64,000 nt of DNA from Phenylobacterium sp. J367. GTDB lineage: Bacteria > Pseudomonadota > Alphaproteobacteria > Caulobacterales > Caulobacteraceae. Below are positions 49,845 to 64,000 of this stretch, piece by piece. The notes beneath the pieces are model-generated. The model made no database searches, had not been told where the DNA came from, and saw only the letters and a list, made by a program, of their open reading frames with translations. Location of the stretch: assembly GCF_024699985.1 (NCBI RefSeq), contig NZ_JAJONA010000001.1, positions 3,850,501-3,914,500 of the forward strand, written 5' to 3'. A program made the translations under genes and the position numbers. Every line of letters begins with the position of its first letter. Position 1 is the first letter of the stretch.

Positions 49845-52319
49845 CTAGTACCGGAAGCGCAGGGTCGCGCCGACCGTCCGGGGCGCGCCCAGGAAGGCGT
49901 CATAGACGCTGACCGAGTCGTTGTTCTCATCGACCTGGTAGGGGCCGTTGAAGCCGACCTGGACGTAGTCCTTGTCGAACAGGTTGTTCGACCACAGCTC
50001 CACCGTCCACGCCTCGTCGGCGGTCGAGAGCGCCACGCGGGCGTTCACCAGCACCATGGCGTCCTGCTCCTTGGAGGGATGCAGGTCGGAGCCGGTGTTG
50101 TACCGCGAGGTGTACTTCGCCGAGACGTTCGACTTGAACTTCATGCCGTCCAGCACGTCGCGCTCGTAGGTGCCGGCCAGCGAAGCCGACCAACGCGGCG
50201 CGAACGACAGTTGCGCGCCGGGCAGGCGACGCAGGCTGTTGAAGCGGCTCGGGTTGATCAGCTCGCCCGCCACGAACGGCGAGATCTCGGTCTCGGCATA
50301 GGTCACGCCGCCCTGGAAGGTCAGGCCGTCGATCTGCGGGACGTAGATGAAGTCCAGGTCCACGCCGCGCGAGATCACTTCCGGGATCGTCTCCACCACG
50401 AAGGCGGTGCCCACGAAGGTGTTGAGCTGGAAGTCCTTGAAGGTCTGGTGGAACAGCGCGGCGTTGAGCAGCAGGCTGTTGCCGAACCAGCTCGTCTTGG
50501 CGCCGAGCTCGAAGGAGTCGACGAACTCGCCCTTGAACGAGGTGTCCGGATCGGCCGTGAAGTTCGGCAGGCCGCCGGCGATGACGATCGCCTGTTCACG
50601 GTCGAGGTTGAAGCCGCCCGCCTTGTAGCCGCGCGAGTAGGAGCCGTAGGCCATCAGGTCGGGGCTGAAGCGGTAGGACAGTTTCGCCGTGCCCGACCAT
50701 TCTTCCTCGGTCCGCTCCTGGGTGGTGACGCCCAGGTCGTCGAAGTCGTTGTTCTGGGCGTTCAGGCACAGACCGCCGACGATGGTCTGGGCGGTGGCCG
50801 CACCGGCGACGCGGACGAGCGTGGCGAACGCCGCCTCGCCCTGGTCGCAGGAGGTCCCCGTCGAGCTGTAGTCGGTGACCAGGGTCTTCTCGTCGCGGGT
50901 CCAGCGCAGGCCCACCGTCGCCTCGAGCGCGTCGGTGATCGCGAACGAGTTGTTGGTGAACAGGGCGAAGGTCTCGCCCTCCTGGCTGTAGCGGTCGTCC
51001 GAGCCGTTGCCGTTCTGGAAGATCGTGCCCGGGACGAGGCCGATCAGCGCCGGGGCGCCGCCCAGCACGCGGCCGGCGAAGTAGGCGTAGTAGTCCGTGC
51101 CGTAGCGGAGGATCGCCCGGCTATCGAGGTCTTCCTTGGCGTAGAAGCCGCCGACCAGCCAGTTCAGGCGGTTGTCGACGGCCTGGCCGGCCAGGCGGAC
51201 TTCCTGCGACACCTGGCCGAACTCCACGAAGTTCGAGCCGTCAGCGGGGCGATAGACCAGGTCGGCGGCGGTGAAGTCGCTGTCCTGGCCGGTCTCGGCG
51301 CGCCAGTTGCGGATGGCGGTGACCGAGGTCAGCGTCATGTCCGGGGTGATGTCCCAGTTGGCCTCGGCCGACACGCCCTTGTCCTCGACGCGCTGGGCGG
51401 TCGAGCGGTTGGCGTAGCCCTGGCGGTCGAACGGGGTGCTGGTGGTGTCCAGCGAGCCCGGGCGAACCTGCTCGATGAAGTTCGCGCGGCTGTTGGCGGC
51501 CTGGCCGACGAACAGCTGGGTGCCCACGCAGCAGTCTTCGTCGCGCTTGGTGTAGTCGGCGATCAGGCGCAGCGAGAGCGTGTCCACCGGCTCCCACAGG
51601 AGCTGGGCGCGGCCGGTGTAGAAGTTCTGGTTGTTGTCGTGGGTGTTGCCGCGCGGGCCGGGGCCCGTCTCGATGTCCTGGTAGCCGTCGCGGTGACGGC
51701 CGCCGACGAAGATCCGGCCGGCCAGGGTGTCGGTCAGCGGACCGGAGATCGCGTTGGTGAAGCCGAACTGGCCGAAGTTGCCGACGGTCGCTTCGGATTC
51801 GGCGGTCAGCTCGCGGGTCGGGCCCGCGGTGATGATGTTGATCACGCCGGCCGAGGTGTTCTTGCCGAACAGGGTGCCTTGCGGGCCCTTCAGCACCTCG
51901 ATGCGGGTCACTTCGCCCAGGTCGCCGAAGGAGACGCCGTTGCGGGGACGGTAGACGCCGTCGATCACCACGCCGACCGAGCTCTCCAGGCCCGGGTTGT
52001 CGCCCACCGTGCCGACGCCGCGGACGCGGGCGGTGACGATGGTCTCGTTGGACGTCGAGGTGACGGTCAGGCCGGGGGTCAGCACGGTCAGTTCGCGGAT
52101 GTCGCGGACGCCGGCGTCGCGCATCAGTTCGCCCGACACCGAGGTCACGACGATCGGCACGTCCTGCAGGCTCTGCTCACGCTTTTGGGCGGTGACGACA
52201 ATTTCCTCGACCGCGCGCTCGGCGCCGGCCTCGACGTCCTGCGCCTGGGCCGCGGTCACGCCGGCGGCCAGCAGAACGGGGGCGAGCGCCGCCGTGCGGA
52301 GAAGCTTCTGGATTTGCAT
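49845..52319 (-). CDS. TonB-dependent outer-membrane receptor
   Basis: This 824-aa protein has a signal peptide (residues 1-27, ending AAQAQ). A TonB-box-like [24 protein letters not shown] leads into a plug domain ([61 protein letters not shown]) and a 22-strand barrel ending [19 protein letters not shown] with a C-terminal aromatic. The EEIVVTA start is typical of the Caulobacter/sphingomonad expansion that imports sugars, nutrients or siderophores; the ligand is not evident. GGAGG lies 6 bases before ATG. No TonB, SusD or enzyme partner is adjacent. Confidence 0.93.
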
Positions 52320-52776: not shown

Positions 52777-53540
52777 ATGTCGTCCGTGACTCGCGCCCTG
52801 ATCCTCAGCGCCGGCCAGGAAAGCGGCTCCTGCCGCTGACCACGTCGCGCCCAAAGTGCCTGATCGAACTGTCGGGCAAGACCCTGCTGCGCTGGCAGCT
52901 CGAGGGCCTGCGCGCGGCCGGGATCCGCGAGGCGGTCGTCGTCACCGGCTTCAAGGCCGAGGCCGTGGACGCCGAGGTCGCCGCCCTCGACCTTCCCGGC
53001 CTGCAGGTCCGCACCCAGTTCAACCCGTTCTTCGACGTGGCCGACAACCTGGCCTCCTGCTGGATGGCCAAGGAGCAGTTCGACCGCGACCTCCTGCTGC
53101 TGAACGGCGACACCCTCTTCGAGCCGAAGATCGCCGAGCGCCTGGTCGCCGCCCCGCCGTCCGAGATCACCGTCACCGTCGATCGCAAGGCCGGGTACGA
53201 CGCCGACGACATGAAGGTCCTTGAGGCGGGCGGCCGCCTGAAGGCCATCGGCAAGGTGATCACCGAGTACAACGCCGAGAGCATCGGCTTCCTGCGGTTC
53301 TCGCCGGCCGGCGGCGCCCGCTTCGTCGCCGCCATCGACGCGGTGATCCGCTCGCCCGGCGGCCTGAAGCGCTGGTACCTCTCGGCCATCGACGAGATCG
53401 CCAAAGCCAGCGGCGTGGTCACCGTCCAGTCCATCGAAGGGCTGGAGTGGGGCGAGATGGACTTCCCGGCCGACTACGAGGCCAACAGCGAGCTGACCGC
53501 CCGCTGGGCGGCCAACGCGTCGAAGCAGACCGCCGCCTAG
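52777..53540 (+). CDS. Sugar-phosphate/alcohol-phosphate nucleotidyltransferase (LicC/IPCT-like), one frameshift
   Basis: The protein starts MSSVTRALILSAGQ-GKRLLPLTTSRPKCLIELSGKTLLRWQLEGLRAAGI, the NTP-transferase signature (GxGxR...PK). It continues VVTGFKAEAVDAE, then NGDTLFEPKIAERLV (metal-binding Asp) and IEGLEWGEMDFPADYEANSEL. One G is missing at 52818-52819 (CCAGGAAAG). The corrected length is 254 aa. The fold and size fit cytidylyltransferases for phosphocholine or inositol-1-phosphate. It is convergent with a second nucleotidyltransferase and lies at the edge of the ceramide locus, so it may activate a head group; this is inference. Confidence 0.78.
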
Positions 53541-54290
53541 GCCTCCCCGACCACCTTGCGGACGAAGTCGAGGTCCGCGGGCTTGTCCACGTCCACGGCC
53601 GCCAGGCCGAACGGGGAGGGCACGGCCGCCGCCCGCACGCCCGCCAGCCTGCCGAGCTTCTCCACCGCGCCCTGCAGGGTGAGCCGGCGCAGCAGGAAGG
53701 CGGCGAGGGCGCCGGGTCCCAGGATCGCCGCCATCTTCCAGGGCCGCTTGCGCTCGGCCTCCAGCCGCTTCCAGAAGTCCACGGCCTTCAGAGCCTGGGG
53801 CGTGCCCAGGTAGAACAGGTTGCAGCCCGACCAGCCGCCGTCGGTGAACGGCAGGTAGGTCCGCTTCGTGCCCCCGGCGTCGCGTTCGATCACGGCGCGG
53901 TTCGCCAGCATGGCGGCGACATCGGTCCCCTGGGGGGATGCCGGCCAGGAACGCGTGGATCCACTCGGGCGCCAGCAGGGCGTGGTCCGAGGTGGTGATC
54001 AGGAGCGGCGTGCCCATGGCGGCCGCGCCCTGTTCCACGCTGAGGCTCGGCCCTTGCGCGGCGTCCAGCACCTCGACGCCCAGCGAGCTCGCCGCCTCGA
54101 CCACCGCCGGATGGTTGGCCGAGACGCAGATCCGCGCCGCGCCCGCCTCGCGCAGCGCCGTCACCACCCGCTCCAGCAGGGTCCGGCCCTGAAGCAGGAT
54201 CAGCGCCTTGTGCGGCACGCCGACGCTCTCCGCGAACGGATCGGGCCCGCCGCGCGTGCCGGCCAGGACGAGAGCATTGAACGCCGTCAC
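53537..54290 (-). CDS. MobA-like nucleotidyltransferase, one frameshift
   Basis: GTG 54290 overlaps the ceramide-synthase stop (GTGA), so the two genes are coupled. The 250-aa protein shows NALVLAGTRGGPDPFAESVGVPHKALILLQGRTLLERVVTAL, ISANHPAVVEAA-like VSANHPAVV, ITTSDHALLAPEWI (metal Asp) and LPFTDGGWSGCNLFYL. The C-terminal part has GPGALAAFLLRRLTLQGAVEKLGRLAGVRAAAV and DVDKPADLDFV. One extra base at 53927-53937 (CCCCCCAGGGG) breaks the frame after FLAGIPPG. The substrate is unknown, but coupling to bcerS suggests a role in sphingolipid head-group or nucleotide metabolism. Confidence 0.78.
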
Positions 54291-55421
54291 GCCAGCGCCT
54301 TCTCGTAGATCCGGTAGGTCTTGTAGACCTGGGCGCCGGCCGCCTGGAGGATGTGGTTCATCGGCCGGTTGTCCTCGAGGATCCAGGACAACTCGGCGCG
54401 CTGGTAGCCCAGCTTCCGGGCCGCGCTGGCCCCCGCATCCATCAGCAGGAACGGCAGCAGCACGCCCCGCGGTGTGCGGGCGAACTTCCTGCGGACACCC
54501 ATGAGCGGCACGCGAGCGGTCTTCAGGCCCTTCACCTTCAGGCGCCAAAGCAGTTTCGCCCACCCGAACGGCAGCAGCCGCCCCTTCAGGTCGCGGATCG
54601 CCTCGTTGAGGTTTGGCAGGAAGACGATGAAGCCCGCCGTTTCCCCGTCGATCTCGGCGAACCAGGTAAGCCGCTTGTCGATCAGCGGCTTCAGGGCCTT
54701 GGCGAGTTGCGCCGTCTCAGCCTCGGTGGTCGGGGTGAACCCCCAGTTGTCCGCCCAGGCGTCGTTGAGGATCGTGGTGAGCTCGCGGACCTCCTGGTCG
54801 TACCGCGCCATGTCCAGCTCTCGGACGGCGACGCCCTCGGGCAAGCCGCGGCGGACGCGCTCCAGCACCCGGTCGGGCAGGTCGTGGGTGGTGTCGGCCA
54901 GGTAGGCGAAGATGTCCTTGGCCTTGGCGTAGCCCAGGTCCTCGATCCTGCGGCCGGTGAAGGCGGGGTCGTGGCCCATCAGCACCATGGGCGGGGTCTC
55001 GTGCCCCTCGACCAGCAGGCCGACCTCCTCGTTGATCGAGAGGTTGAAGGGGCCTAGCGCCCGGTCGCGGCCCCGCTCGCGCAGCCAGGCCTCAGCGGCG
55101 GCGAAGAGGGCAGCGAACACCTCGGGGTCGTCCTCGGCCGCGATCATCCCGAAGTGCCCGGCCTTGCCGAGATCTCTCTGGCATCAGGCGGTCGATCTGG
55201 GCGCTGATCCGGCCCACGTCGCGGCCGTCCCGGACGGCGAGCCAGAGCTGCACCTCGGCGTGGGCGAAGAACGGGTTGGTCTTCGGCGTCAGCGCCTCTC
55301 GGCGCTCGACGACCAGCGGGGCGATGTAGTTCGGATCGCCGGCGTTCAGCCGCATCGGCAGGCGGATGAAGCGGTCGAGCTCGGCCGGCGTCGTGACCGG
55401 CAGGATGGTGACGCCCCCCAA
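54287..55421 (-). CDS. bcerS: Bacterial ceramide synthase bCerS (GNAT-like acyltransferase), one frameshift
   Basis: This 377-aa protein has the two-part GNAT-like fold of the Caulobacter bCerS family: LPVTTPAELDRFIRLPMRLNAGDPNYIAPLVVERREAL and NPFFAHAEVQLWLAVRDGRDVGRISAQID at the start. After one extra base at 55171-55179 it continues LGKAGHFGMIAAEDDPEVFAALFAAAEAWLRERG, and ends WILEDNRPMNHILQAAGAQVYKTYRIYEKAL. The family N-acylates the sphingoid base, and the gene lies beside lptG and about 7 kb from spt, as in Caulobacter. The start is uncertain: TTG 55421, 7 bases after the lptG stop, is the best candidate. Identification rests on family features and locus order. Confidence 0.78.
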
Positions 55422-55428
55422 GGCCCCG

Positions 55429-56487
55429 CTATCCTTCGAGATAGAGCAGGACGGAGAGCGCGCCGCCCGCGAACAGCGCCGGCGCGGCCCAGGCGGCCAG
55501 CCAGGCCGGCGCGAGGCCGCTCTCGCCCATCGCCGTGAAGACACCCTCCACCACCAGGAACAGCAGGCCGGCGGCCAGGCAGACCACGAGGGTGACGCCG
55601 CCGCGTCCGGCGCGGAAGTTGGCCAGCGCCACGGGGACGGCCAGCAGCAGCATGACGACGCAGGCGATCGGATGGGCGGCGAACCGCTGAAGCTGGGTGG
55701 CGTAGTAGCTGCGGGGCCGCACCGAGGCCGTGCCCTCCAGCGCGGCCTGCGCCACCTTCGGCGTGATCATGGCGTCGGAGAACAGGGCTTCCACCTCGGA
55801 AGGCGCGAGCGCGGTCCGCCAGATCAGTTCCTCGGCCGAGGACGCCTGGACCCGGCCCGGCGCCACGGTGCGCACCTCCGGCGAGTCGAGCTTCCAGCCG
55901 TTCGGCACATGGACGGCCGACGCCGCCTTGATGGTCTGGCTGAGCTGGCCATCCAGGGTGCGCCGGTAGATCGTGATGTCGTCCAGGCGGTCCGGCCCGG
56001 CGGGCGAGGGCGTCGCCACCACGATGTCCGGCCCGACCCGGAAGGTGCGGGGCTGGGGCGCCTCCCGGCTCACCGGCGGGGTGGTGGAACGCCACCAGTC
56101 GACGAGGGTGCGGTCGGTGGCCGGGGCCACGAGGGTGCTCATGGCCAGCTGCAGGATCATCATGCCGATCGCCAGGGGCACGGCCATGGCGGTCAGGCGG
56201 TAGCCGGACACCCCCGCCGCGCGCATGGCGGTGACCTCGCTGTTGCGGGCGAGGCGGGTGAAGCCGAAGAGCGCGCCCGCCAGTACGGCGAGCGGCGCGG
56301 CCTGCTCGATCAACCGCGGAAGGCGCAGCATGGTGTAGTAGGCGACGCCGCCGGCCCCGAGCTGCCGCTCGACGATATCGCTGGTCACATCCAGCAGGTC
56401 GAGCACCTGCAGCACGCCGATCAGCACGACGAGCGCGCCAAGGATCTGGACGCCCAGCACCTTGGCCACGTGGCGGGTCATGGTCAT
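55429..56487 (-). CDS. lptG: LPS-export permease LptG
   Basis: LptG forms the inner-membrane LptB2FG extractor. The protein of about 352 aa has six membrane helices (LGALVVLIGVLQVLDLLDVT, LIEQAAPLAVLAGALFGFTRLARNSEVTAMRAAGVSGYRL at the start; FAAHPIACVVMLLLAVPVAL, VCLAAGLLFLVVEGVF and AWLAAWAAPALFAGGALSVLLYL at the end) around a beta-jellyroll periplasmic domain (about 120-250). ATG 56487 overlaps the lptF stop by ATGA; 56481 is an alternative. No LptB or LptC is nearby. Confidence 0.93.
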   Translation of the reverse strand: MTMTRHVAKVLGVQILGALVVLIGVLQVLDLLDVTSDIVERQLGAGGVAYYTMLRLPRLIEQAAPLAVLAGALFGFTRLARNSEVTAMRAAGVSGYRLTAMAVPLAIGMMILQLAMSTLVAPATDRTLVDWWRSTTPPVSREAPQPRTFRVGPDIVVATPSPAGPDRLDDITIYRRTLDGQLSQTIKAASAVHVPNGWKLDSPEVRTVAPGRVQASSAEELIWRTALAPSEVEALFSDAMITPKVAQAALEGTASVRPRSYYATQLQRFAAHPIACVVMLLLAVPVALANFRAGRGGVTLVVCLAAGLLFLVVEGVFTAMGESGLAPAWLAAWAAPALFAGGALSVLLYLEG

Positions 56488-57675
56488 GCGACCGCCCTCC
56501 GGCGCATCTTCATCTGCTTGCGGGCCCGGGCCAGCCAGTCGGCCACGTGCTCGACGACGACCGTCGCGGGGGGTCTCGCCGGGTCGTTTGCGGCTGGTCA
56601 CGAAGGTGATGGCGCAGATCGCCGTGAAGGCCACGAACGGGCCGCCAACGCTCAAGGCGGCGGCCGCCTTGCCGTTGGCCGCCAGGCCCTGGCCGAACTG
56701 CAGGAGCTGGTTGAAGGTGAGCAGCAGCAGACCGGCGACGATGATCCCGGGCGCCGAGCCCCGGCGCTTGGTGGCCAAGCCCAGCGGCAGGGCGAGCAGC
56801 GGCAGCAGCGGCAGGGACAGCGCCCGGCTCCAGCGGGCCAGGAACTCGGCGATCAGGGTCTGGCGCGGGATCAGGCTGTCGGGCCGACGGGCCTCCGAGA
56901 CCAGCTCGCCGAGCGTCAGCTCCCGCTCGTCGCCGCCCCGGGCCCGGAGCAGCCGCGCCGCGCCCGAAAGCGGCACCCGCATGGCGAATGTGTCGAAGCT
57001 CAGCACCTCGGGCTCGCCGCGGCGGTTGGTCCCGAGCTGCAAGCCGCGCTCCAGCACGAGGGTCGCGCTCTCGCCGTCCGCGTTGGTCCTGAGCTGGCCC
57101 ATCCGGGCGGTGATGATCTGCTCACGACCGTCGTCGTCGATCTGGCGGATGAAGACGCCGGTCAGCCTGCGGCCCGCCGCGTCCGCGAAGTTGGTGGTCA
57201 TGGTCAGCTTGTCGTTCGGCGCGACGATCATCCCGCCCTGGACCGAACCACTCCACCCGGCGTTCTCCGCGGCGTGCAGCACCGCCCGGTAGGCGTAGCG
57301 GGAGTAGGGCTGGAGGTAGCCGAACAGCACGAGCGAGATGCACATCAGCACCAGGCCCAGGCCCACGAACGGCACGACGATCCGGCTGAACGAGACGCCG
57401 CTGGCCAGCAGGGCGTCGATCTCGGAATCCTGGTTCAGCCGCGAGATCACCACGAAGAGCGCGATGAAGAAGGCCGCCGGCAGGGTCAGGCCCAGGTAGT
57501 GCGGAACCAGGTTGGCCGTGAGCTCGGTCAGGAAGCCGAAGCGGTTGCTGGAGCCCGAGAGCACGTCCAGCAGCCGCAGCACGCGCTCCAGCAGGAGCCC
57601 CGTCAGGGTGACGAGAATGGCCCCGATCAGGGGCCATGTCATGAGCTTGAGCGTGTAGCGGTCGATGAGGCGCAC
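56484..57675 (-). CDS. lptF: LPS-export permease LptF, one frameshift
   Basis: LptF pairs with LptG. The N-terminus RLIDRYTLKLMTWPLIGAILVTLTGLLLERVLRLLDVLSGSSNRFGF is a typical LptF first helix, with GTG 57675 as start. It continues LPAAFFIALFVVISRLNQDSEIDALLASGVSFSRI, a jellyroll domain, then PLLPLLALPLGLATKRRGSAPGIIVAGLLLLTFNQLLQ. One extra base in the G run 56568-56573 throws the frame into lptG and gives an apparent LptF-LptG fusion. Corrected, it ends at TGA 56484-56486 after 396 aa, overlapping lptG by ATGA. Confidence 0.92.
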
Positions 57676-57692
57676 TGGGTCTCCGTCCGCCC

Positions 57693-58130
57693 TCAGGCCC
57701 GTCCCCAGCGGCCGGCGAGCTCGGCGGCGAGCGCGGCGGACTGGTCGTCGGTCAGCGCCACATGGGCGCCGAGGTTGGGCTGCGCCGGCCAGCCGGCGTC
57801 GGCGAAGGTCAGGCCGGCGTGCTCGCGGCTCCCGTCGTAGCGGGGGATGACGTGGAAGTGGACGTCCCGGTCGACCATCATCAGCATGAGGTAGTTGATC
57901 CGCTCGTAGCCGACGAAGTCGGTGAGCAATCGCTCGATCCCGTCCACCGCGGTCTTGAGATCCGCGAACGCCGACGGCGTCAGCTCGGAGAAGGCGCCGG
58001 CTTCCTCCTTGCATACGAGCACGAGCGAGCCGAGGGTCGGCTGCTGAGGGCGCACGAGGACCCACCAATGCGCGGTTTCCGCGACCAGGGTCCTTGGATG
58101 GCCGAATTTCTGGGCTGTAGGGTTGGTCAT
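57693..58130 (-). CDS. HIT-family protein with altered histidine triad
   Basis: This 145-aa protein reads ETAHWWVLVRPQQPTLGSLVLVCKEEAGAFSELTPSAFADL, then VGYERINYLMLMMVDRDVHFHVIPRYDG, the HIT fold. The canonical HxHxH triad appears as D89-V-H91-F-H93, so the first His is Asp while the two that normally carry catalysis remain. It may be a nucleotide hydrolase or a transferase of the HIT superfamily. It lies 17 bases before lptF on the same strand, so it heads the HIT-lptF-lptG-bcerS-NTase operon. Confidence 0.82.
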   Translation of the reverse strand: MTNPTAQKFGHPRTLVAETAHWWVLVRPQQPTLGSLVLVCKEEAGAFSELTPSAFADLKTAVDGIERLLTDFVGYERINYLMLMMVDRDVHFHVIPRYDGSREHAGLTFADAGWPAQPNLGAHVALTDDQSAALAAELAGRWGRA

Positions 58131-58210
58131 CGTCCGCCGGGACAGGCCGCTAGTGTCCCGAGTCCGGTCAGTAGCGCTGTGGGTCGCATCATAGGGAGGG
58201 GGTCGTACTG

Positions 58211-58702
58211 ATGAAAGCCCGAATGGCCGCCATGTGGGTGGCGGCGATCGGTGCGGCGATTCTCCCGATCACGGCCAGGGCGCAGGATTCCTGCGCCGGC
58301 GCGGCGGAGCCGGGATTCGTCCGGCTGACGGTGCGGGCGCAGAACGTGCAGTCGAGCGCCGGCGAGGTGGCCTTCACCCTCTACCCCAACATCAAGCGCC
58401 GCTTCCTGGCGGCGGGCGGCAAGCTGCTGCGGACGCGGGTGAAGGCGCAGGCGGGGACCACGTCCGCCTGTTTCTGGGTCGCACCGGGCGCCTACGCCCT
58501 GGCCGTCTATCACGACGCCGACGGGGACCGGGATTTCGACCGCAGCCGGCTGGGCTCGCCCGTCGAGGGCTTCGCCTTCTCGAACAATCCGCCCACCCGA
58601 TTCGGCCTGCCGGCCTTCGAGGCGGCGCGCTTCGACGTCGGGCCGGAGGGCCGCCAGCTCGCGGTGCAGATGCGTTACCTGCGCGCCGATCTGAGCCGGT
58701 AG
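58211..58702 (+). CDS. DUF2141 exported protein
   Basis: The 163-aa protein has a signal peptide (residues 1-24, ending TARAQ) and a DUF2141 beta-sandwich: GFVRLTVRAQNVQSSAGEVAFTLYPNIKRRFLAAG, then APGAYALAVYHDADGDRDFDRSRLGSPVEGFAFSNNPP, whose HDADGDRDFD resembles a calcium-binding loop. Function is unknown. It is divergent from the HIT gene and its 3' end overlaps the convergent phosphoesterase gene by 28 bases. Its place in the lipid locus may be incidental. Confidence 0.85.
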   Translation: MKARMAAMWVAAIGAAILPITARAQDSCAGAAEPGFVRLTVRAQNVQSSAGEVAFTLYPNIKRRFLAAGGKLLRTRVKAQAGTTSACFWVAPGAYALAVYHDADGDRDFDRSRLGSPVEGFAFSNNPPTRFGLPAFEAARFDVGPEGRQLAVQMRYLRADLSR

Positions 58703-59571
58703 GCGCCGAGCGGCGCAAATTCCCCGTCCGCCGTCGCGCCGCGCGCGCTGACCCGGGTCGTGAAGCCGGCCTCGGTCCGGGCGATGGCCAGCTCGTGCCA
58801 GCGCGCCGCCTCGCCGTGCCCGCCGGGCGCCGCGGACGCCGAGGGCACGCCCAGCACGGGGATCGGGCCGTCCGGTCCGGCGATCCGGGTCACCAGCGAT
58901 TCGTGGGCGTGGCCGTGCAGGACGAGCTCGGCGCCCTCCGCGGCCAGCACGGCCCGCAGCTCCAGCGCGTCGGTCAGAGACTTCCGCCGGGACACCGCCC
59001 CCTCCGCGACCGGGTGGTGCAGGAGCACGAGACGGTAGAGCCCAGACGCGCGGGTCTCGCGGAGCACCTGCGCCAGCCGCGCGATCTGCTCCGCGCCCAG
59101 CTTGCCCTGGGCCAGGTGCAGCGCGGTGGGAACCGCCGAGCTGAGGTTGATCAGCGCCACCGGCCCGCGCAACCGCACGCGCGGGAAGGGCCCGGTCGCC
59201 TCGTCGCCCAGCCAGTCGGCCCAGGCCGCCAGGGGATCGCCGGCCCGGCGATCGATCAGGGCGTCGTGGTTGCCCGGGCTCACCGTCACGTCGCCGGCGG
59301 GGCCGAGGCCCGCCAGCCAGGCGCGGGCCTGGTCGTATTCCTCATGAGTCGAGAAGTTCGTCAGGTCGCCCGTCAGCACGATGTGGTCGGGGGCATGCGC
59401 CTTCACGTCGGCGACCAGGGCGGCCAGCACCTCCGGCCGGTGGACCTTCGATTTCCGCCGCCAGGCGATCCGGGAAAGCGCCCGCTTCGACACGGCGTCG
59501 GCGAGCCCCAGCTTCATGGGCGGCGGCGCCAGATGCGGGTCCGAGAAGTGGGCGAGGCGGATCTGCGACAA
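58675..59571 (-). CDS. Calcineurin-like metallophosphoesterase
   Basis: The 298-aa protein has the metallophosphoesterase blocks in order: LAHFSDPHL, VLTGDLTNFSTHEEY, VSPGNHDALI, VLLHHPVAEG and VLHGHAHESL. The best relatives are cyclic-nucleotide-phosphodiesterase-like or lipid-phosphatase-like proteins. In this neighbourhood a lipid phosphate or nucleotide-lipid substrate is possible but not shown. It is divergent from the CDP-alcohol transferase gene, with an 84-base gap that must hold both promoters. Confidence 0.86.
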   Translation of the reverse strand: MSQIRLAHFSDPHLAPPPMKLGLADAVSKRALSRIAWRRKSKVHRPEVLAALVADVKAHAPDHIVLTGDLTNFSTHEEYDQARAWLAGLGPAGDVTVSPGNHDALIDRRAGDPLAAWADWLGDEATGPFPRVRLRGPVALINLSSAVPTALHLAQGKLGAEQIARLAQVLRETRASGLYRLVLLHHPVAEGAVSRRKSLTDALELRAVLAAEGAELVLHGHAHESLVTRIAGPDGPIPVLGVPSASAAPGGHGEAARWHELAIARTEAGFTTRVSARGATADGEFAPLGAYRLRSARR

Positions 59572-59655
59572 AAGAAGGAGGTCCCGGAGGCGAACGGTTT
59601 CTGGTCAGGCGCGGCGCAATCTGGCTATCAAGTCCACCGCATTTGCAAAGGGGCT

Positions 59656-60775
59656 ATGGGCGTTTTGAGCGACACGGGATCGGTGGGACGGCCTCTCGGC
59701 CTGACGGTAGGCAGCGGCCAGGCCCGCATCTGGGGCATGACCGGCGCGGAACGGCTGCGCCGGCAGTTCGTGCGCGCCGACCTGGAGCCGGCCGCCGCGC
59801 CGGCCGCCGACCGCGCCGCGGTGATCGCGCGGGCCGACTGGGTGATCGACGAGAACCTGCTGAAGGCCGTGGCGAAGCGGCCGGGTTCGATGCTGGTCGC
59901 CCCGGACGGCGCAGCCGTCGCCGCCCACGCGCCGGCGGGGCAGGGGGCGTCCGTCGCCGCGGCCCTGGAGGCCGGCGGCCTTCCGACCGGTCTCGAAACC
60001 CTCGACCTCGACGCCCTGTCCTACAACGAGGCGCTCCGGAAGAAGGAGACGCCCGTCCTCGAGCCCCTGACCGAGGCCAATGTCCGCGCCGTCGAGGCCC
60101 GCACCTTCAAGGGGTCCTACAAGGGCGTCACCGACATCGTCACCAAGTACGCCTGGCCGCTGCCGGCCAGGATCGTCACCCGCTGGTGCGCGCTGGCGAA
60201 GATGACGCCCAACCAGGTCACCGCCATCGGCTTCCTGCTGGTGCTCGCCGCCTTCTGGCTGTTCTGGATCGGCGAGTTCGGCTGGGGCCTGGTCTGCGCC
60301 TGGATCATGACCTTCCTCGACACCGTCGACGGCAAGCTCGCCCGGGTGACGCTGACCTCGTCCAAGTTCGGAAACCTCTTCGACCACGGCATCGACCTGA
60401 TCCACCCGCCCTTCTGGTGGTGGGCCTGGTACGTGGGCCTGCAGCACACCGGCCAGCTCCCGCCGGACGCCGGCCTTTGGCTGGGCGTCATCCTGATCGG
60501 CTACTGGGTGCAGCGGGGTATGGAAGGCGTGTTCATGCGCCGCTACGGCTTCCACGTGCACTCGTGGCGGCCGTTCGACAGCTTCTTCCGGCTGATCACG
60601 GCGCGGCGAAACCCGAACCTGCTGATCCTGACGCCCGCCGCCCTGCTGGGCCCCGGGCCACGGGTTCTGGCTGGTCGGCGCCTGGACGGCGATCTCGCTG
60701 GCGGTCCATGCCGTGCAGCTCGCCAAGGCGCTGATGACCCCGCGCGACCAGATCGTCTCCTGGCTCTCGCGCTGA
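59656..60775 (+). CDS. CDP-alcohol phosphatidyltransferase with degenerate nucleotidyltransferase-like N-terminus (CpgA-like), one frameshift
   Basis: The 372-aa protein carries a complete CDP-alcohol phosphatidyltransferase motif: D222-x2-D225-G-x2-A-R230-x8-G239-x3-D243-x3-D247, in a membrane domain of about six helices (175-370). The first 150 residues are soluble and recall the C-terminal part of a MobA-like domain (ARADWVIDENLLKAVAKRPGSMLV) but lack its NTP-binding motifs. One extra G at 60655-60657 breaks the frame near the last helices (restoring GPGHGFWLVGAWTAISLAVHAVQLAKAL). It precedes the ceramide-kinase-like gene with a TGATG overlap. In Caulobacter three genes at this position are required for ceramide phosphoglycerate; the transferase role proposed here is inference. 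Confidence 0.85.
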
Positions 60776-61682
60776 TGCGCGCCGGCGTCATCCGGAACCC
60801 GAAGAGCTACCGCAACCAGCGCAGCATGCCCTGGGCCCAGGCCCCCGAGGGGACGCTGTTCGCCAAGCCGCGGACCAAGGAGGCGCTGTCCGAGGCGCTC
60901 CGCGAGTTCGCCGGGGCCGGCGTCGACCTCCTGGTGCTGGACGGCGGCGACGGGACGGTGCGCGATGCGCTCACCCGCATCCCCGCCGCCTTCGGCGACG
61001 CCCACCCGGCCCTGGCCGTCGTGCCCTCGGGCAAGACCAATGTGCTGGCCGAGGACCTGGGCGTCCCGGCCGACTGGACCGTGGAGCAGGCGCTGAAGCG
61101 GGCCTTCGAACCCGGCGCGCCGCGCCAGGCGCGGGCCTGCCTGGAGGTGGTCCGCCGGGACGGGTCGGAACGGCGCCGGGGTTTCGTGTTCGGCATAGGC
61201 GCCTACGTCCGCGCGACCCGGCTCGCGGCCTCGGCCCACCGGCTTGGGGCGTTCGGAACGCTGTCGGTGGCCCTGACCCTCGGGGCCTCGGTGGTCCAGA
61301 GCTTCGTGGGCCGGCCGGATCGCGGCTGGCGGGGCGGGGAGCCGGTGCGGCTGCGCCTGGCCGGCGGCGAGGCCGAGGACCACGCCCGCTTCCTGGTGCT
61401 TTCCACGACACTGGAACGCCTGCCGCTCGGCCTCAAGCCGTTCGGACCGGAACGGCCGGGCCTCAAGACGCTCGCCGTCGACGCCCCGCCCCGGCGGCTG
61501 GCGTCCGCGCTCGCCCCCTCTGGAAGGGCGAGACTCCGGCCTGGCTGGAGCCCGCCGGCTACGTCCGGCGCGACGGCGACCTGGAGGCGGCGCTCGACGG
61601 CGAGTATGTGCTGGACGGTGAAGCTTACCCTGCCGGCGACCTGATCGTGCGCGCCGGGCCGGTGCTGGAGTTCGTGACGTGA
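60775..61682 (+). CDS. cpgB: Ceramide kinase-like (DAG-kinase catalytic fold) lipid kinase, one frameshift
   Basis: The 302-aa protein begins MRAGVIRNPKSYRNQR and has the DAGK nucleotide motif LVLDGGDGTVRDALTRI (GGDGT 57-61), VVPSGKTNVLAEDLGVP and the C-terminal ALDGEYVLDGEAYPAGDLIVRAGPVLEFV that closes the domain. One C is missing at 61514-61518 (restoring APLWKGETPAWLEPAGY). A bacterial ceramide kinase of this type, CpgB, is known from Caulobacter crescentus, and the position between the CDP-alcohol transferase and spt is the same. It is coupled to both neighbours by overlaps (TGATG before, GTGA after). Confidence 0.82.
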
Positions 61683-62596
61683 CCTCGCTCGAGGCGATGC
61701 TGAAGAAGGAGCTGGCGGCGAAGGTGACGCCCGCCGCCCGCCAGTTCGCCGAGACGCTGGCGGCCGCCCAGCCGGGGGCGCTGGCGGTGATCTACTACGG
61801 CTCCACCCTGCGCACCGGGGATCTCTCGGGCCTGCTCGACTTCTACGTCCTCACCGCACAGCCGCACCGGACCGGCGTCCGGGGCGCGCTGGAGCGCCGC
61901 CTGTGGCCCGAAGTCAGCTACCGGGAGGTCGAGACCGTCGCCGGAACGCTCCGCGCCAAGGCCTCCACCATGCCGCTTTCGGTGTTCCGGCGCGCGGCGG
62001 AGGGCCGGACGCTCGACACGACGATCTGGGCGCGGTTCGTTCAGCCGGCCGGCCTCGTCTGGAGCCGCGACGCCCATGCCCGCGACGAGGTGATCGCCGC
62101 CGTCGCCGCGGCGGTCCGGACGGCCGGCGCCTACGCCGCCGTGCTCGGTCCCGAACGGGGCGTGGCGCTGGAATACTGGCGGGCGCTGTTCCGCCAGACC
62201 TACCAGGCCGAGTTCCGGGTCGAGACCGCGAGCCGGGCCGATGAGATTCTGAAGGTCGCGCCCGCCCGCTGGTCGGCGCTCCTGCCGCTCGCCTGGACGG
62301 CTCAGGGCTTCGTCTTCGAGCGGAACGGCGACGACCTGCGCCCCGCGCTCAACGACGAGTTCCGCAGGACCATGCTCGCCCGCTGGCGCGCGCGCCGGCG
62401 CTCGGGCAAGCCTCTGAACCTGGCGCGCCTCGCCAAGGCCGCCTTCACCTTCGACGGGGCGGCGCGCTACGCCGCGTGGAAGATCGAGCGGCACACGGGG
62501 ATGCCCGTGGAGGTCACGCCGTTCCGCGAGCGGCACCCGATCCTGGCGTCGCCCATCGTGCTTTGGCAGCTCTCGCGCTGGAAGAGGAAGCCCTAG
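61679..62596 (+). CDS. Tam41-like nucleotidyltransferase, candidate CTP:ceramide-1-phosphate cytidylyltransferase (CpgC-like)
   Basis: The 305-aa protein begins at GTG 61679, overlapping the kinase stop. Near the N-terminus ALAVIYYGSTLRTGDLSGLLDFYVL shows the nucleotidyltransferase GS (41-42) followed 12 residues later by D54, as in mitochondrial Tam41, which makes CDP-diacylglycerol from phosphatidate and CTP. Further on are VSYREVETVAGTLRAKASTMPLSVFRRAA and LEYWRALFRQTYQAEFRVE, also like Tam41. The last residues (HPILASPIVLWQLSRWKRKP) could be a membrane-associating helix. Next to a ceramide kinase and a CDP-alcohol transferase, the natural substrate would be ceramide-1-phosphate. The family call is fairly good; the substrate is inference. 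Confidence 0.65.
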   Translation: MTSLEAMLKKELAAKVTPAARQFAETLAAAQPGALAVIYYGSTLRTGDLSGLLDFYVLTAQPHRTGVRGALERRLWPEVSYREVETVAGTLRAKASTMPLSVFRRAAEGRTLDTTIWARFVQPAGLVWSRDAHARDEVIAAVAAAVRTAGAYAAVLGPERGVALEYWRALFRQTYQAEFRVETASRADEILKVAPARWSALLPLAWTAQGFVFERNGDDLRPALNDEFRRTMLARWRARRRSGKPLNLARLAKAAFTFDGAARYAAWKIERHTGMPVEVTPFRERHPILASPIVLWQLSRWKRKP

Positions 62597-62598
62597 GC

Positions 62599-63813
62599 CT
62601 AGCCCAGCGCGCGCTGTTCCGAGGGCAGCAGGCCGATCTGCTTGCCGACCGCCTCGAACACCGACAGCACCTCGTCGATCTGCTCGAAGCTGTGCGCGGC
62701 GCTGACGCTGGATCGCAGCAGCGGACGGTTGTCCGGCGTCGCCGGCGGCATGGCGAGGTTCAGATAGACCCCGTTGGCCAGCAGGGCGTTCCAGGCGGTC
62801 AGCGCGGCCGGAAGGTCCGGCATGACCACGGCGACGATCGGGCTGGCCGTGTCGCCGGTCGTGAAGCCCATGGCGCGCAGGCCATCGAACAGCCGCTTTG
62901 AATTGGCCTGCAGGCGGGTGCGCAGCGCGGGCTCGTCCTCGACCCGCTTCAGCGCCGCCAGGGTCGAGGCGACGACGGCCGGGGGCAGGGAGGCGGTGAA
63001 CATGTAGGGCCGCGAGACGACGCGCAGGATGTCGAAATCCGCATCGTCGGAGACGCAGAAGCCGCCGATGGCGCCCAGGCTCTTGGAGAAGGTGCCGACG
63101 ATGTAGTCGACGTCCGCTTCCACGCCGGCCGCCTCGGCCAGGCCGCGGCCCTTCTCGCCCAGCACGCCCATGGAGTGGGCCTCGTCCACCAGCAGGTAGG
63201 CGCCCATCTCCTTCTTGACCGCGACGATCTCCTTCAGCGGAGCCACGTCGCCCATCATCGAATAGATGCCCTCGACGACGATCAGCCGCTCGCCCGGCGC
63301 GTCCTTGAGGCGGCGCAGGCGCTTGGCGAGGTCTTCGGGGTCGTTGTGGCGGAAGCGGATGACTTCCGAGTGGCCGAGCCGTGCGCCGTCGTAGATCGAG
63401 GCGTGGCTGTCGGCGTCCAGGATCAGGTGGTCGCCGCGGCCGACGAGGGCCGACAGGACGCCGAGGTTCGCCTGGTAGCCGGTCGTGAACACCATGGCGT
63501 GCTCACGGCCGTAGAACTTCGCGAGGTCGCGCTCCATGGCCAGGTGGCCGCCGAAGCTGCCGTTGGCGATGCGCGAGCCGGTCGTGCCCGTGCCCCAGGT
63601 CCGCACGGCCTCGGCCGAGGCGTCGATGCAGTCGGGGTCGAAGGTCAGGCCAAGGTAGTTGTTGGTGCCGAGCAGGATGACGCGGCGGCCGCCCAGCTCC
63701 GCCTCGGTCGGCGAACGCACGGCGTCGAATCGCACGTTGAACGGGTCCGCCCCGTGGCTGCGGATACCTTCGTAGGCCTGGCTGTAGCCGAGGTGCTTGT
63801 CGAGCAGTCCCAT
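62599..63813 (-). CDS. spt: Serine palmitoyltransferase
   Basis: Spt condenses L-serine with palmitoyl thioester to 3-ketosphinganine, the first step of sphingolipid synthesis. The 404-aa alpha-oxoamine synthase has GTNNYLGLTFDP, GTGTTGSRIANGSFGGHLAMERDLAKFYG, the catalytic stretch LLVDEAHSMGVLGEKGRG (Asp210, His213) and PLP-lysine K244 in GTFSKSLGAIGGF. Relatives such as KBL and BioF share the fold, but the adjoining ACP and ceramide genes favour Spt. It ends 3 bases from the convergent Tam41-like gene and starts 12 bases after the ACP stop. Confidence 0.92.
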   Translation of the reverse strand: MGLLDKHLGYSQAYEGIRSHGADPFNVRFDAVRSPTEAELGGRRVILLGTNNYLGLTFDPDCIDASAEAVRTWGTGTTGSRIANGSFGGHLAMERDLAKFYGREHAMVFTTGYQANLGVLSALVGRGDHLILDADSHASIYDGARLGHSEVIRFRHNDPEDLAKRLRRLKDAPGERLIVVEGIYSMMGDVAPLKEIVAVKKEMGAYLLVDEAHSMGVLGEKGRGLAEAAGVEADVDYIVGTFSKSLGAIGGFCVSDDADFDILRVVSRPYMFTASLPPAVVASTLAALKRVEDEPALRTRLQANSKRLFDGLRAMGFTTGDTASPIVAVVMPDLPAALTAWNALLANGVYLNLAMPPATPDNRPLLRSSVSAAHSFEQIDEVLSVFEAVGKQIGLLPSEQRALG

Positions 63814-63825
63814 TCTTCTTTTGCC

Positions 63826-64000
63826 TTACGCCCGCAGCTCGGTGATCAGGGCGCTCAGGTCCCCGATCGTCTGAATATCCGCAAGTCGATCGAGCGGGAT
63901 CGAAATATCGAACCGATCCTCAAGCTCCATCACGATGTTCATCAGCGCCAGGGAATCCACGGAGAGATCGCGCGCGATATCGGTTTCGTCCTGTAGACGA
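63826..64000 (-). CDS. Acyl carrier protein dedicated to sphingolipid synthesis (N-terminus outside window)
   Basis: The last 57 codons of a minus-strand gene read DETDIARDLSVDSLALMNIVMELEDRFDISIPLDRLADIQTIGDLSALITELRA. The Ser in VDSLAL is the phosphopantetheine site. It lies 12 bases upstream of spt on the same strand and matches the separate ACP known beside spt in Caulobacter, which would deliver acyl groups to Spt or bCerS. The start and the next genes (expected cerR and an acyl-ACP synthetase) are beyond the window. Confidence 0.9.
   Translation of the reverse strand, partial: RLQDETDIARDLSVDSLALMNIVMELEDRFDISIPLDRLADIQTIGDLSALITELRA

Follow-up and report, generated by a model that had tools for sequence, protein, structure and literature searches.

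A Phenylobacterium copy of the Caulobacter acidic-sphingolipid locus and a possible two-module route to phosphoglycerate head groups

Introduction

How is an acidic phosphoglycerate head group placed on ceramide? The question is raised by a 64,000-nucleotide stretch of the genome of Phenylobacterium sp. J367 (hereafter the window). Judged from its sequence, the last part of the window, starting at about 52797, and the 5 kb that follow it correspond to the Caulobacter sphingolipid locus CC_1152-CC_1166 in a Caulobacteraceae version, that is, the known acidic-sphingolipid cluster from a further species (L001 denotes the stretch of this genome reaching 5 kb past the window end, L073 the Caulobacter vibrioides locus). 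We lean towards a scheme in which ceramide and then the head group would be built by two separable modules, a core and an add-on. In the core, Spt and its partners would make ceramide, CpgB would phosphorylate it to ceramide-1-phosphate, CpgC would move CMP from CTP onto ceramide-1-phosphate, most likely giving CDP-ceramide, and a separate enzyme, not among the assigned genes, would exchange CMP for glycerate to give ceramide phosphoglycerate (CPG); CC_1153 would be placed here by its distribution. In the add-on, CpgD would make CDP-glycerate, and CpgA, a CDP-alcohol transferase resembling AF2299 and DIPPS, would hand phosphoglycerate from CDP-glycerate to CPG, yielding CPG2. The activities of CpgB and CpgD and the lipid profiles of mutants have already been shown in Caulobacter (PMC10331486, PMC12275187, PMC11324152), while the reaction of CpgC, the donor of CpgA and the place of CC_1153 are what we infer here.

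Results

A predicted Tam41-type fold in CpgC

The initial annotation took CpgC for a Tam41-like nucleotidyltransferase and had set beforehand, as a check, a structural comparison of the 61679-62596 product with Tam41. When the AlphaFold2 model (predicted local distance difference test, pLDDT, 93.6) was compared with the Protein Data Bank, Tam41 indeed provided the best matches, at 12% identity over the structural alignment, and in an alignment of 58 CpgC sequences YGS, D54 and K94 are invariant. Pfam is blind to the likeness: the window protein has no Pfam family even at E up to 5, PF09139 (Tam41) is matched by 0/58 family members, and sequence searches against solved structures returned chance matches only. 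A Pfam Tam41 search of the organism's own genome found no match and is uninformative, since the control genomes gave none either. The closest relative with a named organism is from Phenylobacterium (72% identity), and another relative reaches 94%. On the model, a Tam41-type nucleotidyltransferase is supported, and with CpgC so read, CDP-ceramide would plausibly be its most economical product.

The CDP-ceramide intermediate of the initial annotation is plausible and better supported than before, but the idea is not new, the authors of PMC11324152 having suggested that CC_1161 might produce NDP-activated ceramide. Neither a report of CDP-ceramide nor an assay of CpgC was found in the literature searched, subscription journals lying mostly outside the search. 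The names CpgABC reportedly go back to a 2022 paper.

The genes on which the argument turns are the following.

52797..53540, forward strand: cpgD (CC_1152/CCNA_01210 type), predicted CTP:phosphoglycerate cytidylyltransferase (Pfam NTP_transf_3 and NTP_transferase)
53537..54293, reverse strand: CC_1153-type MobA-like nucleotidyltransferase, 5' end estimated (tblastn, two frames)
59656..60775, forward strand: cpgA (CC_1159), cytidylyltransferase-like N-domain and CDP-alcohol phosphotransferase domain (Pfam CDP-OH_P_transf, E 1.1e-12)
60775..61682, forward strand: cpgB (CC_1160), ceramide kinase with diacylglycerol kinase (DAGK) fold (Pfam DAGK_cat, E 2.4e-11)
61679..62596, forward strand: cpgC (CC_1161), Tam41-fold nucleotidyltransferase, predicted CTP:ceramide-1-phosphate cytidylyltransferase (AlphaFold2 model)

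The Pfam match of CpgB bears out the DAGK-fold kinase that had been called next to CpgC, and the step given to it, from ceramide to ceramide-1-phosphate, is backed by the published ceramide kinase activity of the Caulobacter orthologue (PMC10331486, PMC12275187).

Distribution of the two modules

Two samples were surveyed, one of 241 genomes of the class (33 with CpgB and CpgC) and one of 50 genomes with CpgC. CpgB and CpgC share one genome set (33/241) and lie at most 300 bases apart in 28 of the 33. CpgA and CpgD likewise co-occur, in identical sets of 20/241 and 23/50 genomes, and the core is often found without them: CpgB and CpgC stand without CpgA and CpgD in 13/33 genomes of the class sample, and CpgC does so in 27/50. 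In Caulobacter, a CC_1159/CC_1160 double mutant complemented with only CC_1160 regains CPG and not CPG2 (PMC11324152).

For CpgD, the nearest solved structure by sequence is a CTP:phosphocholine cytidylyltransferase; identity is up to 66% to relatives and 61-65% to the copies in nine Caulobacter/Phenylobacterium genomes. The Caulobacter orthologue forms CDP-glycerate from CTP and phosphoglycerate (PMC12275187).

CC_1153 appears to go with the core. Its Caulobacter orthologue matches Pfam NTP_transf_3 (E 1.4e-14), and a profile (E 1e-15) found it in 32 of the 33 CpgC genomes and in none of the remaining class sample; the CpgC genome that was missed has a partial match at a contig end. It is present in 12/13 CpgC genomes lacking CpgA and CpgD. 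We assign CC_1153 to the core because its distribution follows CpgB and CpgC, which suggests a change to the published scheme, in that the protein would not serve the CPG2 step alone. Weighing against this placement, the CC_1153 mutant retains CPG and is without CPG2; it also has much raised ceramide and grows slowly, the gene having once been believed essential (PMC11324152). One possibility is that CC_1153 acts on the CpgC product. As the missing transferase it is rejected, since the mutant still makes CPG (PMC11324152).

Taken further, the scheme makes CpgC a dedicated Tam41-type ceramide-1-phosphate cytidylyltransferase forming CDP-ceramide, a natural nucleotide-activated sphingolipid, a proposal for which we consider the chances evenly balanced. 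The two sides would then be activated one after the other: CpgB-CpgC with CC_1153 would prepare the lipid so that the first phosphoglycerate can be linked, CpgD-CpgA would use an activated head group to link the second, and core-only species would make CPG or another CDP-ceramide-derived lipid.

Alternative readings of CpgA and CpgC

The initial annotation had joined the kinase, CpgC and CpgA into a single chain in which CpgA adds the head group to CDP-ceramide, as in phosphatidylglycerol synthesis. Its CDP-alcohol phosphatidyltransferase with all motif residues is there, D..DG..AR.{8}G...D...D lying at 60319-60396 and recurring in 32/32 CpgA homologues taken from the loci, and the overlaps of 1-4 bases among the three genes are as described (TGATG at 60773-60777, one base, for cpgA/cpgB; GTGA at 61679-61682, four bases, for cpgB/cpgC). 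The chain can draw on these overlaps, on the position of cpgA at most 300 bases from cpgB in 14/20 class genomes, and on the ability of CDP-alcohol enzymes to take CDP-lipids, the best, though weak, NCBIfam matches of CpgA being CDP-lipid users and phosphatidylinositol-phosphate synthases also scoring well in its fold comparison. The structure of CpgA was judged on a model (pLDDT 86.9) of its Caulobacter orthologue, in which, as in AF2299 and DIPPS, the membrane domain is preceded by a predicted N-domain of cytidylyltransferase-like type; the donor is not settled by fold alone. Against CpgA as the user of CDP-ceramide stand the presence of CpgD, a CDP-glycerate maker with the same genome set, the many genomes in which CpgB and CpgC occur alone, and the CPG formed with CC_1160 in the absence of CC_1159. 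We therefore hold the single chain to be very improbable, and the enzyme that would use CDP-ceramide is probably not CpgA.

If CpgC instead linked glycerate or phosphoglycerate straight to ceramide-1-phosphate, as in the earlier Caulobacter scheme, a free nucleotide-activated lipid would be unnecessary. Genetics put CC_1161 at the step from ceramide-1-phosphate to CPG with no separate transferase known (PMC11324152, PMC12275187), and no conserved transferase candidate appeared among the inspected neighbours of CpgA-less loci (clusters common to at least 6 of 36 loci, and six class-sample loci, with Pfam run on seven proteins from the latter six and most neighbours judged by eye). Such a linkage is energetically not very favourable according to the authors of PMC11324152, and the fold of CpgC is that of an enzyme moving CMP from CTP; we regard it as unlikely, a possible variant being one enzyme that forms and consumes CDP-ceramide on the protein. 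CpgC might also use CTP on another lipid phosphate or on a phospho-head group, its effect on CPG being indirect: the fold is silent on the substrate, and the identity to Tam41 is low. The shared genome set and close spacing of CpgB and CpgC argue against this, as does canonical CdsA, present in 21/21 genomes, and we find it quite unlikely.

Six genomes (G079, G270, G189, G187, G128, G205) carry further paralogues that resemble CpgA (E 2.5e-50 to 7.8e-65), in five of them on the same contig and about 20 kb or less from cpgA; perhaps they serve longer or different head groups.

Layout and integrity of the locus

The window order is cpgD (forward), CC_1153, cerS, LptF/LptG-like genes and a HIT-like gene (reverse, the Lpt-like and HIT-like genes assigned by eye only), CC_1157 (forward), CC_1158 (reverse), cpgA, cpgB and cpgC (forward), then spt and acpR (reverse). 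The remaining features are listed here.

54287..55439, reverse strand: cerS (CC_1154, bacterial ceramide synthase), 5' end estimated (tblastn, two frames)
58211..58702, forward strand: CC_1157 type, secreted-looking DUF2141 protein, pathway link uncertain (Pfam DUF2141, E 1.6e-24)
58675..59571, reverse strand: CC_1158-type metallophosphoesterase (Pfam Metallophos, E 7.4e-12; 60% to the Caulobacter orthologue)
62599..63813, reverse strand: spt (CC_1162), serine palmitoyltransferase (NCBIfam SerpalmtaseBetaP, 668 bits, cut-off 500)
63826..64000, reverse strand: acpR (CC_1163), 3' part inside the window (named by position and look, adjoins spt)

The initial annotation had described a compact gene set. 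Its Spt is confirmed by the NCBIfam model, and its acyl carrier protein gene does lie beside Spt but leaves the window (63826-64140, L001:2326-2640); with acpR as tblastn query, L092, L093, L096 and L097 each yielded a gene adjoining Spt. Its ceramide synthase was recovered by tblastn as two pieces, 70% and 72% identical to the Caulobacter orthologue; the frame changes between them at about 55165, leaving no intact open reading frame (ORF), and the piece tested had no Pfam family above cut-off. Two further genes complete the set, the second cytidylyltransferase gene cpgD and the MobA-like CC_1153, so that spt, cpgA, cpgB, cpgC, cpgD, CC_1153 and cerS all stand together in the window, four of them seemingly frameshifted in the assembly. 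The genes and overlaps are present, but cpgA, cerS and CC_1153 are broken ORFs, and cpgB seems to be one as well. Pieces in two frames were also obtained for cpgA (break at about 60652; alternative start 59737) and CC_1153 (54% and 55%, break at 53930-53970), while cpgB gave a single piece, its frame seeming to shift at about 61515, with the conserved C-terminal end (DGE...) read in the other frame when set against the family consensus. Intact are cpgC (305 residues), spt and cpgD, whose start is not fixed, the frame being open upstream to 52542. The breaks at 53930-61520 and L001:2659-5338 are probably errors of an indel-rich assembly, because the genome is rated 83% complete (2 contigs) and many relatives have intact genes, with 32 full-length CpgA homologues, all carrying the motif, and 24 intact CpgB rows hand-chosen for alignment. 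By look, the CerR and AasR genes past the window (L001:2659-5338) also show frame breaks. A large ORF directly preceding the cluster (49845-52319) looks TonB-dependent receptor-like.

Neighbouring genes

The neighbours inspected in CpgA-less loci were the kinase, CpgC, CerS, Lpt-like and DUF2141 proteins, CC_1153 and CC_1158, together with a fatty acid hydroxylase and genes of housekeeping type; a glycosyltransferase gene turned up in one locus. The hydroxylase gene (PF04116; four found by Pfam, the others by tblastn) occurs in 5/6 CpgA-less loci (L092, L093, L094, L095, L097) and in two CpgA-bearing ones (L047, L064). The CC_1167 protein (L073:17138-18295), termed probably unrelated in print, resembles TagF only weakly and below the cut-off (E 0.047), and we keep it as a lead in the search for a transferase. 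Five cpgBC loci of Sphingomonas (L010, L013, L038, L052, L071) each hold two of its relatives, and those genomes have weak relatives of CpgA and CpgD and no full-length ones.

DUF2141 relatives are found in 63/81 CpgC loci (L002-L081 with the window locus) and frequently adjoin cpgB or cpgC in varying arrangements; they also neighbour these genes in L083, L088, L090 and L091. Counting against a pathway link, the gene is present in 16/33 CpgC genomes and in 56/208 others, and CC_1157 is called probably unrelated in PMC11324152, its mutants being without high cofitness with the cluster. A pathway role for DUF2141 is backed by position only and is uncertain.

Discussion

Anionic sphingolipids help Caulobacter to survive without lipopolysaccharide and are linked to polymyxin sensitivity (PMC12275187, PMC11324152). 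The predicted Tam41 fold, the dedicated ceramide kinase partner and the independent CpgD-CpgA module narrow the vague CpgC step to a reaction that can be assayed directly.

Compared with Tam41/Mmp37 CDP-diacylglycerol synthase, CpgC has a like predicted fold across the nucleotidyltransferase region and the helices behind it, including a small beta wing, and both carry one acid at the motif where most nucleotidyltransferases carry two; CpgC differs in its missing Pfam match, its low identity and in genetics that point to ceramide-1-phosphate rather than phosphatidic acid. CpgA shares its predicted two-domain build with the CDP-alcohol phosphotransferases AF2299 and IPCT-DIPPS, but its predicted donor, CDP-glycerate, would come from a separate protein, CpgD, and its acceptor would be a lipid. 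The window CpgD shows no visible difference from the known CTP:phosphoglycerate cytidylyltransferase, its activity being predicted from sequence. The closest known system is the Caulobacter crescentus CPG/CPG2 locus CC_1152-CC_1168 (cpgABCD, spt, cerS, cerR, acpR, aasR). In the window cpgD is convergent with CC_1153, whereas the 20.9-kb locus L073 has no cpgD match, cpgD lying elsewhere in that genome; L073 carries a 154-residue gene between cpgC and spt with no counterpart in the window, and CC_1167 is matched neither in the window nor in L001. With these exceptions, the window and the stretch beyond share their gene content with L073, in largely the same order and orientation.
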